Shown here: one piece after another, positions 3,860 through 64,000 of the stretch
Numbering within the stretch: position 1 is the stretch's first letter
Layout of the letters: every line of letters starts with the position of its first letter
From: Aeromicrobium massiliense JC14
GTDB lineage: Bacteria; Actinomycetota; Actinomycetes; Propionibacteriales; Nocardioidaceae
Assembly: GCF_000312105.1 (NCBI RefSeq)
Contig: NZ_HE978637.1
Coordinates: forward strand, 124,001-188,000
Length of the DNA stretch: 64,000 nucleotides
Direction of reading: 5' to 3'
Translations under genes and position numbers: made by a program
Notes under the pieces: generated by a model
Seen by the model: the letters and a program-made list of their open reading frames with translations, nothing else
Database searches by the model: none
What the model was told of the DNA's origin: nothing

Positions 3860-4702
3860 ATGCAGAGCAGCAACCCCGTCTTCTCGCGCAGCGAGGAGTT
3901 CAACGGTCGCGGCCAGTTGCGCACCGACCCGTCGCAGTGGCAGATCGACCTCAACGGCGAGCCCACCACGTACGGCTCGCAGTCCGTCACCGACCAGCGC
4001 CGCATGACCATCGACTCGGTGGTGGAGAAGACGGCCATCACGCTCGGCCTCGTCGCCATCTCCGCGGCGGTCACCTGGTTCCTCATCGGTGACATCGCAG
4101 CCTCGGACGCGAACATCCAGAAGGCGTGGACGTTCGCCATGGGCGGCGCGCTCATCGGCTTCGTGCTGTCGATGGTCAACTCGTTCAAGAAGGTCATCAG
4201 CCCCGCGCTGGTCATGGCGTATGCCGTGGCCGAGGGCGCGTTCGTCGGCGCCTTCTCGAAGGTCATCGCGAACATGGTCGGCGACCAGACGATCGTCTTC
4301 CAGGCAGTGCTGGCCACCATCGTCGCCTTCGCGGCGACGCTGGGCGCGTACAAGTTCTTCGACATCCAGGTCACCGCGAAGTTCCGCAAGGTCGTCCTGA
4401 TCTCGATGTTCGCCTTCGTCGGCGTCATGCTGGTCAACTGGATCCTCAGCCTGACCGGCGTCCTGGAGTCCGGCGGCCTGCGCAGCTTCGACAACCCGGG
4501 CCTGTCGCTCCTGGTCTCCGGCATCGCGGTCGTCCTGGCCGTGTTCATGCTGATCCTCGACTTCGACTACGTCGAGCAGGGCGTCCGCGCCGGGCTCCCG
4601 GAGCGCGAGTCGTGGCGCGCGGCCTTCGGGCTCACCGTCACCCTCGTGTGGCTCTACCTGGAGCTCCTGCGCATCCTCGCGATCCTGCGCGGCGACGACT
4701 GA
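3860..4702 (+). CDS. Bax inhibitor-1/YccA family membrane protein
   Basis: 280 residues: about 50 soluble N-terminal residues, then seven hydrophobic segments. The family regions AYAVAEGAFVGAFSKV and the last transmembrane stretch with LYLELLRILAILRGDD are clear. Bacterial members (YccA/YetJ type) are multi-pass inner membrane proteins; YetJ conducts calcium in a pH-dependent way. The actinobacterial role is unproven. A strong GGAGG (3851-3855) precedes the ATG, and a TATAGGGT promoter element lies at 3821-3828. It is monocistronic and ends at a strong hairpin. Confidence 0.88.
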   Translation: MQSSNPVFSRSEEFNGRGQLRTDPSQWQIDLNGEPTTYGSQSVTDQRRMTIDSVVEKTAITLGLVAISAAVTWFLIGDIAASDANIQKAWTFAMGGALIGFVLSMVNSFKKVISPALVMAYAVAEGAFVGAFSKVIANMVGDQTIVFQAVLATIVAFAATLGAYKFFDIQVTAKFRKVVLISMFAFVGVMLVNWILSLTGVLESGGLRSFDNPGLSLLVSGIAVVLAVFMLILDFDYVEQGVRAGLPERESWRAAFGLTVTLVWLYLELLRILAILRGDD

Positions 4703-4718
4703 CCCCAGCACCACGCAC

Positions 4719-4753
4719 GACGGGCCGGTTCCCCCTCGGGGAGCCGGCCCGTC
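4719..4753. terminator. Bidirectional hairpin terminator
   Basis: A 16-base stem (4719-4734 with 4738-4753, one G-T type mismatch) closes on a 3-base loop. It lies between the convergent Bax inhibitor and SGNH hydrolase genes and can serve both. It lacks a U-tract, which is common in high-GC actinomycetes. Confidence 0.75.
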
Positions 4754-4770
4754 GGCGTTGGTGCGGGAGG

Positions 4771-5682
4771 TCAGCCGCGGCGGCGGCGGACGGTGGCCCA
4801 GCGGCCGGCGCCGACGACCTCGGTGCCGGACTCGTGCGACGCCTGGGCGGCCGCAGCCCCGAGCGGCATGAGGTCGCGCGGGACGTCGAAGAACGGCACG
4901 CGCCCGGTCTCGTGCTCGCGCAAGGCGCCGGTGATGGCGGGCAGCAGCACGCCGACCATGTTGGCGTAGCCGGTGGCCGACGGGTGGAAGCGGTCGGCGC
5001 CGAACATGACGTCGTGGTGCTCCAGGAACAGCCGGCCGAGCAGCTCGCCCAGCGACACGGCGCGTCCGCCGTTGCGGGCGACGGCCACGGTCTGCAGCTT
5101 GGCCAGCCGCGTGCTGATGCGGTGGGCGTACCAGCGCAGCGGCTGCTGCAGCGGCCGCACGAGTCCGAGGTCGGGGCAGGTACCGACGACGACCTCGATG
5201 TCGCGGGCCGTCAGGTCGCGCACCACCTCGCCGAGCTGGCGCGCCGCGAGGCCCGGCCGCACGCGGTGGGTGACGTCGTTCGCGCCGACGACGATGACGA
5301 CGACGTCCGGCTTGTGCTCCAGCCCCAGCTCGAGCTGGGCCGGCAGGTCGGCGGTGACGGCCCCGACGACGGCGACGCTTCGCACGTCCACGGGCGCGCC
5401 GAGCACGTGGGTGAGCCCGATGCCGATGAGGCCGGGCGGGGTCTGGTCGGCGCGCTCGGTGCCGTAGCCCACCGCCGCGGAGTCGCCGGCGACCAGGACG
5501 CGGACGGGCTCGCCCAGCAGGTCGTCACCGTACAGGCCGTCGGGGGAGGGCGGACGCTCGTCGGTCACGCCGATCGCCTTGCGCGCCAGGACAGCCTCGG
5601 CGAGCACGGTGCCGTAGAAGCCGGTCAGGGCGGCGGTGCTGCCCACGAGCGCGGTGGTGGCGACTTTCGTGGGCTTGGGCAC
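4771..5682 (-). CDS. SGNH/GDSL-family esterase/lipase
   Basis: 303 residues. An N-terminal hydrophobic segment (KVATTALVGSTAALTGFYG) may be a membrane anchor or signal. The SGNH blocks are visible: VAGDSAAVGYG (Ser), VVGANDVTH (Asn), and DRFHPSATGYA with the catalytic Asp and His. The substrate is probably an O-acyl ester on the cell surface or in the cytosol. I chose the GTG at 5682 rather than the ATG at 5691, because TATCAT (5690-5695) sits 7 bases before that GTG like the other leaderless promoters and overlaps the ATG. Confidence 0.85.
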   Translation of the reverse strand: MPKPTKVATTALVGSTAALTGFYGTVLAEAVLARKAIGVTDERPPSPDGLYGDDLLGEPVRVLVAGDSAAVGYGTERADQTPPGLIGIGLTHVLGAPVDVRSVAVVGAVTADLPAQLELGLEHKPDVVVIVVGANDVTHRVRPGLAARQLGEVVRDLTARDIEVVVGTCPDLGLVRPLQQPLRWYAHRISTRLAKLQTVAVARNGGRAVSLGELLGRLFLEHHDVMFGADRFHPSATGYANMVGVLLPAITGALREHETGRVPFFDVPRDLMPLGAAAAQASHESGTEVVGAGRWATVRRRRG

Positions 5683-5689
5683 GCCGCAC

Positions 5690-5695
5690 ATGATA
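5690..5695 (-). promoter_or_regulatory. -10 hexamer TATCAT deciding the SGNH hydrolase start
   Basis: On the minus strand TATCAT is followed by 7 bases and the GTG at 5682. The alternative ATG (5691) is inside this hexamer and would not be transcribed from it. Confidence 0.5.
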
Positions 5696-5775
5696 CGAGC
5701 ACCCACCCCCCTGGTTGCGAGTCGAGACGACGTGGGATCGGCCACGCTGTCGGATCCGGTGGCTAGGGTCGGGAC

Positions 5776-6462
5776 ATGACGACCTACCTGCCCAACCTGC
5801 GCGACGTCGGTGGGCTGCCGGTGCCCGGTGGCGGACGCGTGCGGGCCGGGCGGGTGCTGCGCAGCGCCGCGCCCATGGCCGGTGACGCGGTGCCCGAGGG
5901 TCTGGTCTGGCCGCCGGCGGTCGTGCTCGACCTGCGCTCGGCCGGCGAGCTGGGCAGCGTCCATCCCCTGGCCGGGCCGTCCACCCGGGTCGTCAACGTC
6001 CCGCTGCTCGAGGCGCTGCGGCCCGACGCGCACCCGGTGCGCGACCTCACCGACCTGTACCGGGTGATGCTCGACCACTCCAGCGAGCGCTTCGTCGACG
6101 TGCTGCGCGAGGTCGCCGACACCGACGGCCCGGCGCTGCTGCACTGCGCGGCCGGCAAGGACCGCACCGGTGTGAGCGTCGCGCTGGTGCTGCGCCTGCT
6201 CGACGTCGAGCACGAGCACGTCGTGGCCGACTACCTGGCCACGGAGAAGGAGTACGACGCGATCGACGCCCGGCTCAGCCAGGGCCCGGGCGCCGCGAAC
6301 CGGGCGAACCTGCCGGCCTCGTTCTTCACCACGCCGGTCGAGGCGATCGAGAGCGTCCTCGAGCGCTGGGACGCCGCCGACGGCGGGGTCGAGGGCTGGG
6401 CCGTGCGCGCCGGCGCCGACGAGAAGCTGCTCGACCGGCTCCGCACCTCGCTGGTCGGCTGA
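5776..6462 (+). CDS. Tyrosine-protein phosphatase (Y_phosphatase3 / PtpB-like)
   Basis: 228 residues. The phosphatase P-loop HCAAGKDRTG carries the catalytic Cys124 and Arg130 (CX5R). The N-terminal NLRDVGGLPVPGGG and DLRSAGEL are typical of the Mycobacterium PtpB/LipA-like group, which dephosphorylates phosphotyrosine and sometimes phosphoinositides. Preceded by TAGGGT at 5764-5769, 6 bases before the ATG, so probably leaderless and monocistronic. No signal peptide is seen. The physiological substrate is unknown. Confidence 0.88.
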   Translation: MTTYLPNLRDVGGLPVPGGGRVRAGRVLRSAAPMAGDAVPEGLVWPPAVVLDLRSAGELGSVHPLAGPSTRVVNVPLLEALRPDAHPVRDLTDLYRVMLDHSSERFVDVLREVADTDGPALLHCAAGKDRTGVSVALVLRLLDVEHEHVVADYLATEKEYDAIDARLSQGPGAANRANLPASFFTTPVEAIESVLERWDAADGGVEGWAVRAGADEKLLDRLRTSLVG

Positions 6463-53329: not shown

Positions 53330-54799
53330 TCAGGGCAGGGCCGGCCAGCTTGCGCGGAAGTCGTCGGCAGCGGCATGGGTCCTGAACTCAAGAACCGCGA
53401 CGTTGTGCTGTTGCAGCGCGTCCAGGACTGCCTGAGGCTCGACGCGGAAGAACTCCTTGCGAAGGTTGACCTTGTTCAAGCGTTGCGCGGCGAACTCCCG
53501 ATGCAGCATCGCTTCCACGCCGACCGCGTCGTCGCTGAAGAACAACGCGTGGACGTCGAAGATGAAGGGAACGGACGCGTCGCCCAGCTCTCGCACTCGA
53601 TCCATCGGGTCGAGTCTTCGGGTCATGCCGATCTTCACCACCCCTTCTCCGAACGCCCCGATGTTGGAGATGACGTAGACGTAACCGGCGCGGATGTTCG
53701 CAACGCGGTAGTCCGCTTCGGCGATTGCCGCGTCGATGCGTACGAGCTCCGACTCGAGCTTGAGTGCGCCGTCCTCATCGCCGGCAGCGCGAAGGCGTTC
53801 GATGGAGTTCGTGTAGTGCGCGCGCTCCTTTTCGAGCCTTTCCTTCTCGCGGGTGATCTCGGCCTCTAGAGCCTTCTGCTCACGCAGCTCAGCGCGACGC
53901 TCGCGTTCGAGCTCCTTGGCAGTCGCGACGGCCTTCAGATGCCGGGCGGCAAGCTCCAGCTCTAGGAGTCGAAGGTGGTGGTAGCGCGTGGTCACCGCGA
54001 GATCGATCATGGTGCCCTGCTTGGCGATCTGTTCACGCGCAACCGACAGCCGCTTCTGCGCGGAGGCTAGATTGCCAGCCTTGACGCTCTTGACTGCATT
54101 CTCCGCCTCGGCGTTGTAGGCACGGAGCATGATCCGGCTCATCTGATTGACGAAAGTCTTGCCCTTCGCCGTCGAGCCGTTGAACGTGAAGCCGGACGTG
54201 GCCGTGATCGCGGTGCCGATCTTGTTGGCCTGGCGGATCTGGGAGCGGAGCGCTTCAAGCTCGGTTGCAAGGCTAGCCGAGGCTTCCGCTGGATGCTCGA
54301 AGTCGAAGAGCCCGAGCTCCTCCAGCGAGATTCGGTCGCGGGCCACCAAGATGTCGGACTCGACCCGCTCCTTCTCAGCAGAAAGTTCCTGGACTTCTGC
54401 CCGCAAAGCGGTCTCGAGCTCTTGCTGCTCTGCGATCCGTGTCGCGCGCTCGACCGCGTCTAGGGCACCCAACTCCGCCAACAGACGGGTGAGACGGGCG
54501 TTTTCGGACTGAAGCTTTGTCGCGATCTTCTTGGCGTTGAATGCCGTGACCTTCTCGGGCTCACGAGTTGCCGCGGACGGCATCGGGTCTGGCTCATCGA
54601 TGGCCGGGGCTTCCGCAACTGGTGTTTCGTGCGTCGGCTGGGCCTTGTCCGTTTCGCCTACCGCCGGTTGAGGAGGCAGGGCGTCCTGATGACGCTGACC
54701 GTTCGTAGCCACGTGCTCGGTCCATCGAGCGCCGTCCCAGTAGCGAAACTCGTAACGTCCAGTCGGGTCGCGGTACCAATCGGCGACGGTCGTTCCCAT
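53330..54799 (-). CDS. DUF2510-DUF4041-GIY-YIG (T5orf172) protein
   Basis: 489 residues. Residues 5-28 (ADWYRDPTGRYEFRYWDG) are a DUF2510 repeat. Residues ~85-330 are DUF4041, with long coiled coils and the FNGSTAKGKTFVNQMSRIM core. Residues ~375-470 form a T5orf172/GIY-YIG nuclease-like domain (GYVYVISNIGAFGEGVVKIG, then RRLDPMDRVREL). This layout is common in phages and mobile islands, and may cut or bind DNA. GC is clearly lower than the flanking genes, which suggests transfer. Confidence 0.85.
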   Translation of the reverse strand: MGTTVADWYRDPTGRYEFRYWDGARWTEHVATNGQRHQDALPPQPAVGETDKAQPTHETPVAEAPAIDEPDPMPSAATREPEKVTAFNAKKIATKLQSENARLTRLLAELGALDAVERATRIAEQQELETALRAEVQELSAEKERVESDILVARDRISLEELGLFDFEHPAEASASLATELEALRSQIRQANKIGTAITATSGFTFNGSTAKGKTFVNQMSRIMLRAYNAEAENAVKSVKAGNLASAQKRLSVAREQIAKQGTMIDLAVTTRYHHLRLLELELAARHLKAVATAKELERERRAELREQKALEAEITREKERLEKERAHYTNSIERLRAAGDEDGALKLESELVRIDAAIAEADYRVANIRAGYVYVISNIGAFGEGVVKIGMTRRLDPMDRVRELGDASVPFIFDVHALFFSDDAVGVEAMLHREFAAQRLNKVNLRKEFFRVEPQAVLDALQQHNVAVLEFRTHAAADDFRASWPALP

Positions 54800-57544: not shown

Positions 57545-58027
57545 TCAGCGAACACGATTCCCGCAGAGCGCCAGGACAGAACCGAAGTCTGTTGCCAGAT
57601 TTCCCATCTCGCCAATCGCGACGATCAGTGCTGGGACATCGATGGTGATCGCGTCGAACGATCCGCCTGCGGACTTGCGCGATGGTTTGTGCCCCCAGAC
57701 GGTGCCGTCAGTAGCCGTCGGGTACGCGCTGTGGACAAGAGAGTTTCGTTTATCTAGTACCCCCTCGACGGCGACCAGATACTCATGCACACGAGGCCGG
57801 GCGTACGCAGGGAGTTCCTCAACGAGTTTCAGACATCTCTGAACGCATTCAGATGCAGGAAGCTGCTTGCCCACCGGCGACCCCCGCAGGGCCATCTGCT
57901 CGTAGAGCGCCTCGAGTTGTTGTTCAAGCACTGCCGAGACGCAGACAACCCGTCCCAGACAGGAGAAGAAGTCGTCGGGCAATGGTCCCAGGACTCCCTG
58001 CGGTAGCCCGTACTTGTCGGTACCCAT
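57545..58027 (-). CDS. Unknown low-GC protein with a HEPN-like RNSLVH motif
   Basis: 160 residues. It is helical; the motif GVLDKRNSLVHSAYPTATDG contains R-x4-H (RNSLVH), which recurs in HEPN-domain RNases of toxin and defence systems. The rest is not recognised. GC is lower than neighbours, and it stands alone on the minus strand between DUF1330 and the LLM oxidoreductase. HEPN assignment is an inference from one motif. Confidence 0.5.
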   Translation of the reverse strand: MGTDKYGLPQGVLGPLPDDFFSCLGRVVCVSAVLEQQLEALYEQMALRGSPVGKQLPASECVQRCLKLVEELPAYARPRVHEYLVAVEGVLDKRNSLVHSAYPTATDGTVWGHKPSRKSAGGSFDAITIDVPALIVAIGEMGNLATDFGSVLALCGNRVR

Positions 58028-59515: not shown

Positions 59516-60763
59516 TCAGTCCTCATCTGCCGACGACTCGTCGCCGTTCTTTCGTGTGCCGCGCTCGCTGACACGACGTGACACCTTGTCTTTCGCCGAT
59601 CGCGCCCGGACGATCGCATGAGTGCCGAGTCGCTTGGAGGCATCGAAGCCTCCTGAGCCGGCCTCGAGCATGCGGTCCCTGACGTCCGTGGCAGCGTCCG
59701 ACCAGGGACGCGCCTCGAGCGCGGATCGCTCGGACTCGATCCCGAGCCGTCCGTGAAGCTCCGACACGACTTCTGAGACTCGTTCGGTGGAGTTCACGAC
59801 CGTGGGCGAGGCAGACGGGTGAAACAGCACCTTCGTGTTCGCCTTCGTCGCGGCTGTCTGCATGCGTGCGAGCAGGCCGTGGGTCGACCGGGTGATGCTG
59901 TCGAGTCGCTTCTGGCGGGCGGCGCGCAGCCCGCGCCGGTGTCCGTCGAGGCCCTCCGGTGATGCCTCGGCCACGCGGTCGATCTCGAGGATGGCGATCG
60001 CGTCCTGCAGCTGGAAGCAGCGGGCGAGCACGGCGAGCCAGCTCTGCACGTCCGCCTCGATCTTCTCGGCGGTGTCGGCCAGTCCGCGGATGCCCGACTG
60101 GCTCTCGAGCTTGTCGGCGAGAGCATCGAGCCTGAGCAGGGCGTACGCCTGAGTGCGGGCGATGGTCGCTGACGAGGCCTGGACTTTGGACCAGGTGACC
60201 TCGTTGACACCGCCGCCGTGCTCGCGGATGACCATGGCCTCGTCGATGTCGAGCCCGACACCGATCATCCCGGCGATGACCTCGTCCTTCTGGGCACGCA
60301 GCAGGTCGTCGACCTTCTCGTCGATCGTGGCGAGGTAGTCGGTCAGCTCGCTCATCGTCTGCTGCATCGCGAGCTGCGCCATGACACCGGCAGCACCGGC
60401 GAGCAACGCGGGGTTCGCGGCGATCGAGCCGGGTGCCTTGGAGACCTGGAGCCACGACTTCACGGCACCGGGCTTTCCCACCATCGCGTGAGTGACGCCG
60501 GGGTCCTTGCCCTGCATGAGCCCGTACTTCTTGACCTGCTCGGCCGACTCCGCCGTCAGCTTGAGCCACCTACCAGAGTTCGCGGCGACCTGTGATCCGG
60601 CTTGCGCGGCGCTGCTGCCGGCACCCAGGACGGTGCTCAGCTTCGGCATGGCGACGGCCTGGGACGTCAGGTTCTCCGAGACGAGGAACTGCTCCACGGC
60701 GTTGGGGTCGCCGATGACGGCCAAGCCATCTCCGTCGCTGATCAGCTGAATCTCGTCGTTCAA
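59516..60763 (-). CDS. Unknown 415-residue protein with a central hydrophobic helix
   Basis: I start it at the TTG 60763, because GAGGAG is 5 bases upstream and TAGCAT (60819-60824) is a possible promoter. A GTG at 60865 overlapping the merR stop is in frame and would add 34 residues. It has a beta-like opening (LISDGDGLAVIGDP), a hydrophobic helix (LLAGAAGVMAQLAMQQTM) and then long helices with TIDEKVDDLLRAQKDEV. No family recognised. Possible envelope or contact-effector protein, by layout only. Confidence 0.6.
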   Translation of the reverse strand: MNDEIQLISDGDGLAVIGDPNAVEQFLVSENLTSQAVAMPKLSTVLGAGSSAAQAGSQVAANSGRWLKLTAESAEQVKKYGLMQGKDPGVTHAMVGKPGAVKSWLQVSKAPGSIAANPALLAGAAGVMAQLAMQQTMSELTDYLATIDEKVDDLLRAQKDEVIAGMIGVGLDIDEAMVIREHGGGVNEVTWSKVQASSATIARTQAYALLRLDALADKLESQSGIRGLADTAEKIEADVQSWLAVLARCFQLQDAIAILEIDRVAEASPEGLDGHRRGLRAARQKRLDSITRSTHGLLARMQTAATKANTKVLFHPSASPTVVNSTERVSEVVSELHGRLGIESERSALEARPWSDAATDVRDRMLEAGSGGFDASKRLGTHAIVRARSAKDKVSRRVSERGTRKNGDESSADED

Positions 60764-60861
60764 GTCCGCTCCTCGCGTGGGTCCTGCCGGAGCCGCATGG
60801 CTTGCGGAATCCTCGACGATGCTAAGCGTGACGGGTCGATGGTGAGCCGTGTTCGGCGAAC

Positions 60862-63263: not shown

Positions 63264-63437
63264 GGGTCGGGAGAAGCGTCGGGACGAGTCATTAATTCGC
63301 GACTCCGCCTATGCAGGTGACCTGCTGCCCGTCAGGTGCTCATCCGATCCGCTACGTGGCCACGGCGCGAAGCGGTCCAGGCGACACCGGTCCGTGCTTC
63401 CATGTCCCCAGACACTCACGTCACCAGGAGGCCCACC

Positions 63438-63818
63438 GTGGAACAGCGCAAAACTGTGTTTTTGGCATTTGCGAAAGAGGACGAGACGTCCAAGAACCTC
63501 TTCATTGGTCAACGGAAACTTGGTAATACGCCGTACGACTGGACTGATATGGCGGTTAAGCAACCTTATGAGACCGCTTGGAAGGACCGCGTGCGCACGC
63601 GAGTGCGTCGTTCCGACGGGGTTATCGCGCTAATCAGTAGCAGCACCCCGGACGCAGATGGCCAGCTCTGGGAAATTGAGTGCGCGGTAGAAGAGCAAGT
63701 ACCGGTTCTTGGCGTGTGGATCGAAGACGGCTACCGGACCAAGCCGACGGAGCTGGGTAGCGCGAAGTGCGTGAGTTGGACCTGGGATAACATCGCCAAT
63801 TTCATCGACTCTCTCTGA
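63438..63818 (+). CDS. TIR-like domain protein (ThsB-type, MTH538 TIR-like family)
   Basis: 126 residues, all one TIR-like domain. KTVFLAFAKEDETSKNLF is the first strand and loop. WTDMAVKQPYETAWKDRVR, RRSDGVIALISSSTPDADGQ and LWEIECAVEEQVPVLGVWI match the TIR-like domain of Thoeris ThsB proteins. The Glu in WEIECA is the candidate NADase residue. The GTG has AGGAGG (63426-63431) 6 bases upstream. Low GC. Its stop is 2 bases before the caspase-like gene, so it is co-expressed with it. Confidence 0.85.
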   Translation: MEQRKTVFLAFAKEDETSKNLFIGQRKLGNTPYDWTDMAVKQPYETAWKDRVRTRVRRSDGVIALISSSTPDADGQLWEIECAVEEQVPVLGVWIEDGYRTKPTELGSAKCVSWTWDNIANFIDSL

Positions 63819-63820
63819 TC

Positions 63821-64000
63821 ATGAAGCGCGCACTGTTGGTCGGCAATGACACGTATAAGTCGTTTGGAAACTTGAGTGGCTGTGTCGAAGATGTTAAGGC
63901 GTTGCAACCGCTGCTCGCCCGTCACGAGAACGGTGAGCCAAATTTTGAGTGCGTCACAGAGACCGACCTAACACGAGATGAACTGATCGGCGCTATCGGT
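63821..64000 (+). CDS. Caspase-like (peptidase C14) protein, N-terminal part, cut by window edge
   Basis: 60 codons from the ATG 63821. KRALLVGNDTYKSFGNLSG, then CVEDVKALQPLLARHENG and NFECVTETDLTRDELIGA match the start of bacterial caspase-like p20 domains. The catalytic His and Cys would lie beyond the window. The pairing with a TIR gene suggests a defence effector. The continuation is unseen, so further domains cannot be excluded. Confidence 0.8.
   Translation, partial: MKRALLVGNDTYKSFGNLSGCVEDVKALQPLLARHENGEPNFECVTETDLTRDELIGAIG

Follow-up and report, generated by a model that had tools for sequence, protein, structure and literature searches.

Does the pair of genes at the right-hand end of the window, a stretch of 64,000 nucleotides (nt) from Aeromicrobium massiliense JC14 (G000:C2:124001-188000), form an ordinary type IV Thoeris antiphage system, in which a TIR gene precedes a caspase-like protease gene, or is it part of something less familiar? 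An earlier note on this DNA had proposed a type IV Thoeris system, acquired horizontally. The caspase gene runs past the end of the window, and the sequence beyond it was taken from the same genome (locus L009; window position = L009 position + 62500; L-numbers denote loci and G-numbers genomes, G000 being the source genome). With the continuation, the pair became an operon of three genes, the third of which lies wholly beyond the window and is predicted to encode a SLOG-type protein.

Structure of the operon

The operon comprised genes for a TIR protein (126 amino acids [aa]), a caspase (313 aa) after a gap of 2 nt, and a SLOG-type protein (163 aa) after a 4-nt overlap, all tightly packed and codirectional.

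63426..63431, + strand: AGGAGG, likely ribosome-binding site of the TIR gene (read from the sequence)
63438..63818, + strand: ThsB-like TIR protein, 126 aa, GTG start (Pfam and PADLOC matches)
63821..64000, + strand: C14 caspase-like protease, first 60 codons, with the ATG at 63821
L009:1321-2262: whole caspase gene, 313 aa, ending at the equivalent of window position 64762
L009:2259-2750 (equivalent to 64759-65250): SLOG-type protein, 163 aa, GTG start, 4-nt overlap with the caspase stop

The spacing of 2 bases claimed earlier was recovered exactly, with the TIR stop codon ending at 63818 and the caspase ATG at 63821, and the motifs WEIECAVEE and SDGVIALIS were both located in the TIR protein. 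The SLOG gene is followed by a convergent transporter-permease gene, and the genes flanking the operon were read as ATP-binding cassette (ABC) transporter genes.

We consider it somewhat better than an even chance that this locus is a horizontally acquired abortive-infection antiphage operon, a distinct variant of type IV Thoeris in which the caspase and SLOG proteins form an execution module and the SLOG protein is a nucleotide-binding regulator. The three-gene packing, the intact caspase dyad, and the candidate catalytic glutamate of the TIR protein were read from the sequence, and the SLOG fold was assigned via a close homologue. The SLOG protein is proposed as the regulator of the caspase because of co-inheritance, overlapping genes, and fold.

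Protein families

The TIR protein scored above the cut-off of Pfam family ThsB_TIR (PF08937; E = 1.3e-5, 25.9 bits versus 21.2) and matched PADLOC ThsB models (from E = 2e-5). Its candidate catalytic glutamate, E78, lies in the motif WEIECA and was invariant in 17 aligned TIRs. The protease scored above the cut-off of Pfam Peptidase_C14 (E = 1.8e-15, 57.7 bits versus 21.4) and matched the PADLOC "caspase" model (E = 5.7e-17). Once sequence to the right of position 64000 was obtained, the caspase gene proved intact, and the expected His/Cys dyad was confirmed as H77 (AGHG) and C123 (LDCC), conserved in 62/62 and 16/16 rows of the two caspase clades described below. Within the C-terminal ~95 residues, E251, Q269, P279, A289, T298, G301, and Y304 were kept in both clades, so the caspase may sense a signal directly, with the SLOG protein as a second check. 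The idea that the SLOG protein replaces the sensing part of the caspase was unsupported, these invariant residues being shared with two-gene systems. Against solved structures, the caspase profile gave 20 matches at E ≤ 0.01, which were metacaspases and MALT1, with no bacterial TIR-caspase effector among them.

By fold, the third protein is predicted to belong to the SLOG superfamily. The assignment rests on a structure model, that of a Rhodococcus homologue with 43.5% identity to the SLOG protein of the operon, because profile searches of solved structures with SLOG profiles gave weak or chance matches only. The closest folds to this model (Foldseek) were YpsA and DprA, with YpsA nearest. The protein itself reached 13.7 bits against Pfam YpsA (PF06908), below the cut-off of 27.7; YpsA matches at E ≤ 0.1 were obtained for 2 of 20 SLOG homologues, and, of 149 genomes searched to build a YpsA reference set, 1 had a match. 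The fold bears on a reading in which the SLOG protein is a base-releasing, LOG-like enzyme that makes a signal and feeds the caspase, alone or with the TIR protein. That reading appears very improbable: the invariant motif is GGTxD, not the GGxGTxxE of LOG proteins, and the closest folds are those of YpsA and DprA, neither of which is known to be a hydrolase.

Co-inheritance of the caspase and SLOG genes

Caspase loci were gathered from plasmids, genomes, and viral contigs. PLSDB held a caspase relative in 58 records (43 covering at least 80% of the query), a TIR relative in 51, and a SLOG relative in 44. A profile scan of one genome per species across 84,980 species confirmed 366 relatives, the best 80 of which were kept, and viral contigs contributed 39 loci, the 17 best of which (L142-L158) were annotated. 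With 3 caspase open reading frames removed for being shorter than 280 aa and 9 removed as identical, 105 of 117 remained as rows for analysis. A SLOG gene was located within 1.6 kb of the caspase in 28 of these 105 rows, counted loosely enough to include a gene on the opposite strand (L139), a fragment (L093), a gene behind a TIR gene (L094), and an upstream one (L034); 73 had none, and 4 lay too near a contig end. These frequencies are not a census, since the loci were picked for their resemblance to an alignment with the window's caspase at its head.

In a quick tree of the 105 caspases, a clade of 16 rows that includes the window's caspase contained 15 with a SLOG gene and 1 at a contig edge, such that all 15 scorable members carried it. 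A large separate clade of 62 rows comprised 58 without a SLOG gene, 1 with, and 3 at contig edges, and the remaining 27 rows were divided between 12 with and 15 without. A more careful tree of 63 rows (the 42 omitted were mostly near relatives and included none of the 16) placed the 16 rows on one side of a branch with support of 100/96, recovered in all 200 bootstrap trees. The window's caspase thus falls in a supported clade apart from the large two-gene clade, which is taken here as typical type IV Thoeris.

Pairwise distances among caspases were correlated with those among SLOG proteins (r = 0.68, n = 26 after exclusion of the near-duplicate L099 from 27, P = 1e-4, with shared descent still in the test). 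Among 19 loci that also had a TIR gene, correlations with shared descent retained and the nearest TIR used, whichever its subtype, were 0.68 for caspase and SLOG, 0.19 for caspase and TIR (P = 0.014), and 0.22 for SLOG and TIR (P = 0.007). The caspase co-varies with SLOG more than with TIR. An equation of TIR plus caspase with type IV Thoeris misses the most unusual part of the locus, because among the caspases that form a clade with the window's, the SLOG gene is constant and the TIR gene is not.

These results bear on whether the locus is an ordinary type IV Thoeris system behind which an independent defense gene or accessory has come to lie by chance. The absence of SLOG from 58 of the 59 members of the large clade that could be scored, together with the occurrence of SLOG homologues without a caspase, would agree with such an arrangement, but its presence in every scorable member of the smaller clade, the start-stop overlap, and the distance correlation make it improbable. 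At two loci in large genomes of the phylum (L038:6585-7505, − strand; L039:7038-8123, − strand), a SLOG homologue lies beside a gene for a two-transmembrane (2TM) protein. The 2TM gene of L038 was assigned to SLATT_1, SLATT_3, and DUF4231 by Pfam, and that of L039 was recognized by eye; related SLOG proteins may thus serve membrane effectors too.

Genes in front of the caspase-SLOG pair

Within the 16-row clade, 7 rows had a TIR gene upstream in the same orientation (the window, L060, L063, L065, L066, L069, and L070), 2 had one convergent behind the SLOG gene (L059 and L061), and 7 had none within 1.6 kb (L040, L062, L064, L067, L068, L071, and L072). Among the 89 rows not in the clade, 12 had no TIR match, including some located at a contig end or next to a different TIR-like gene. 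Two TIR subtypes were distinguished by eye, marked by "FAKEDE" (the window's) and "FDFDH." A CATRA gene was detected upstream by tblastn in four of the seven TIR-less clade loci (L062, L064, L068, and L071) and was absent by the same search from the window's locus, L009; both of the two CATRA genes scanned matched CATRA-N, CATRA-C, and EAD1. In L059 and L061, a ~1,183-aa SNF2/Helicase_C gene abuts the caspase start.

Whole genomes were searched for TIR in six cases of a caspase-SLOG pair without TIR (L062, L064, L067, L068, and L072 of the clade, and L085). Across these six, the TIR profile gave no match in five and a weak one (7e-5) in the sixth, and both control genomes were recovered. TIR_2 proteins were present in all six genomes and weak ThsB_TIR matches in two, so a TIR protein may act in trans there.

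The caspase-SLOG pair may, more tentatively and at less than an even chance, be a self-standing death cassette with exchangeable triggers, in which a separate SLOG nucleotide receptor gates the caspase (a split receptor), distinct from the two-gene type IV Thoeris. The retention of SLOG where TIR is absent or replaced poses the question of whether the caspase, the SLOG protein, or both read the alarm.

A caspase without a TIR-profile match was also seen in the archaeon Methanocorpusculum (L114:1779-4874), behind a ~1,031-aa gene whose start looks DUF4062-like by eye. In a preprint, DUF4062 proteins are called TIR-like NADases (PMC13174449).

Third gene in loci without SLOG

The gene directly after the caspase was predicted to encode a RyR-like protein of 92 to 102 aa with the motif EHxRWxHW in 7 of the 73 loci without SLOG and in none of the 28 SLOG loci. 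Two of three such proteins scanned matched Pfam RyR below its cut-off (E = 0.0025 and 0.015), and the third had no match.

RyR-like gene behind the caspase gene, with EHxRWxHW: L052, L054, L055, L057, L058, L060, L119, L130, L131, L133, L134, L136

The remaining loci without SLOG had a second TIR gene, a two-helix membrane protein (by eye), an unrelated gene, or nothing close in this position; three two-helix membrane proteins scanned had no Pfam match, and that of L091 matched 8xMP. In Rhodococcus erythropolis NBRC 15567 (L060:1204-2845 and 4588-6433), a TIR-caspase-RyR and a TIR-caspase-SLOG operon stand about 1.7 kb apart, a natural internal comparison.

The phage RyR protein RyDEP cleaves 2'/3' cyclic ADP-ribose (cADPR), with H75 and W78 in its pocket, and some of its relatives sequester 2'/3'cADPR (PMC13232231). 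By analogy, some host operons may carry a signal-handling gene of their own. SLOG and RyR, both of them families with ties to ADP-ribose signals, fill the same slot, which suggests that the third gene handles the signal. A possible rule is that TIR-caspase operons often have a member of such families in third position.

The main rival to a regulatory SLOG protein builds on the same observations and holds that it is an off-switch, degrading or soaking up the TIR-made signal as a guard against accidental suicide, with the third slot given to signal clearing by SLOG or RyR-like proteins. The activities of RyDEP and its relatives and the distribution of RyR-like genes are in its favor, as is the prediction that SLOG proteins cleave or sense ADP-ribose derivatives (PMC9503650). 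We nevertheless judge it unlikely, as SLOG co-varies more with the caspase than with TIR and is retained at loci where no TIR of this family occurs, and the failure of RyR and SLOG to occur together was not significant among these related rows (Fisher's exact test, two-sided P = 0.19).

Distribution and probable horizontal acquisition

TIR-caspase pairs recur on plasmids, on viral contigs, in bacteria, and in an archaeon, and on account of this recurrence the anatomy of the operon is in keeping with type IV Thoeris. One plasmid case, L032 (Agrobacterium plasmid pTiCFBP5877), has TIR-caspase-SLOG among genes for CHAT-domain, metallophosphoesterase, and S8 peptidase proteins. Of 396 genomes sampled evenly across the phylum, 7, including the source genome, had a caspase of this type (E ≤ 1e-25), and 4 of these (G000, G192, G293, and G409) had a SLOG match directly behind the caspase. 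A scattered and mobile occurrence that spans plasmids, viral contigs, and genomes, together with the ties of the TIR and caspase families to antiphage defense, leaves it barely credible that the operon serves stress-triggered death or housekeeping rather than defense.

The guanine-plus-cytosine (GC) content of the operon was 0.55 to 0.60, and that of its surroundings was about 0.73; the low GC content ascribed earlier to the TIR and caspase genes was borne out (0.55 to 0.60 versus about 0.72 to 0.73). The caspase query matched 6 of 58 genomes (source genome included) at E ≤ 0.001. Apart from the source genome, 1 of 36 genomes of the same genus matched, weakly (G027; 27% identity, E = 1.3e-6). 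Low GC content and near-absence from same-genus genomes together fit horizontal acquisition, and the operon was probably so acquired. A search for an empty site in relatives, limited to the best flank matches, yielded no clean orthologous junction; in G017, the two flanking transporter genes had their best matches 12 kb apart.

The proposal of a horizontally acquired type IV Thoeris system thus held for the ThsB-like TIR protein, the intact caspase, the signs of horizontal transfer, and a TIR-caspase pairing kept in distant genomes, and fell short in overlooking the SLOG gene. Neither outcome that the note had named as counting against it was observed: the downstream gene does not lack the dyad, and no sign emerged that the TIR gene belongs elsewhere with a pairing confined to this genome.

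Comparison with known systems and proposed mechanism

The defining study of type IV Thoeris is that of Rousset et al. (2025; doi 10.1126/science.adu2262). As in that system, which serves here as the model for a TIR-made signal and execution by a caspase (PMC12847820), the TIR gene of this operon directly precedes the caspase gene, the dyad is intact, and the distribution is mobile; the clade differs in its constant third gene, SLOG, and its non-constant TIR. The type IV signal is N7-cADPR, which the TIR protein of this operon may also make. Type I Thoeris also joins TIR signaling to a SLOG domain, that of ThsA (SIR2-SLOG), which binds 3'cADPR (PMC11204291). Here, by contrast, the SLOG is a separate protein with YpsA as its nearest fold, and the role of killer falls to a caspase in place of SIR2, which matched neither the caspase nor the SLOG protein at E ≤ 1. 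Caspase ternary systems with CATRA (PMC8195603) share the upstream CATRA gene with four loci of this clade, but the window's locus has TIR in that position; no description of SLOG as a partner in CATRA caspase systems was found in the literature search. The closest NCBIfam caspase model, NF047832, is that of the EACC1-caspase system (PMC7159879), but the match of 93.4 bits is below its cut-off of 140 and the neighbor is TIR, not EACC1. SLOG-SLATT (2TM effector) genes involve related SLOG proteins, with a membrane protein rather than a caspase as the effector. No description of a TIR-caspase-SLOG or caspase-SLOG operon was found among titles and abstract beginnings, a search that reached few subscription papers and neither Rousset 2025 nor Burroughs 2015. 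TIR-caspase defense is known in kind; the variant with constant SLOG was described nowhere in the literature searched.

In the favored reading, of a type IV Thoeris variant with a SLOG regulator, infection would switch on the TIR protein, which, by analogy with type IV Thoeris, would convert NAD+ to a cyclic ADP-ribose-type signal. The caspase would then turn active and degrade cell proteins, and the phage would be stopped. Translated alongside the caspase, the SLOG protein would bind a nucleotide, which could be the signal or some metabolite, for example a derivative of ADP-ribose, and would license or restrain the caspase as its regulatory partner. Caspase and SLOG would form the conserved execution module, and the trigger in front would be swappable: TIR of two subtypes, CATRA-EAD1, or possibly an SNF2-type helicase. 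A conserved partner with a nucleotide-binding fold offers a direct handle on how bacterial caspases are held in check and activated.

Neighboring genes

Two orphan genes in the window (57545-58027 and 59516-60781, both − strand) had GC contents of about 0.60 and 0.67 and no family match above cut-off. A third gene (53330-54799, − strand; GC content, about 0.63), possibly acquired, encodes a coiled-coil-like protein of 489 aa with a GIY-YIG/T5orf172-type C terminus by eye. To the right of the window, ~3 kb past the SLOG gene, a gene of lower GC content (about 0.61; L009:5557-6846, − strand) encodes a 429-aa protein matching Schlafen/AlbA_2 above the Pfam cut-off.
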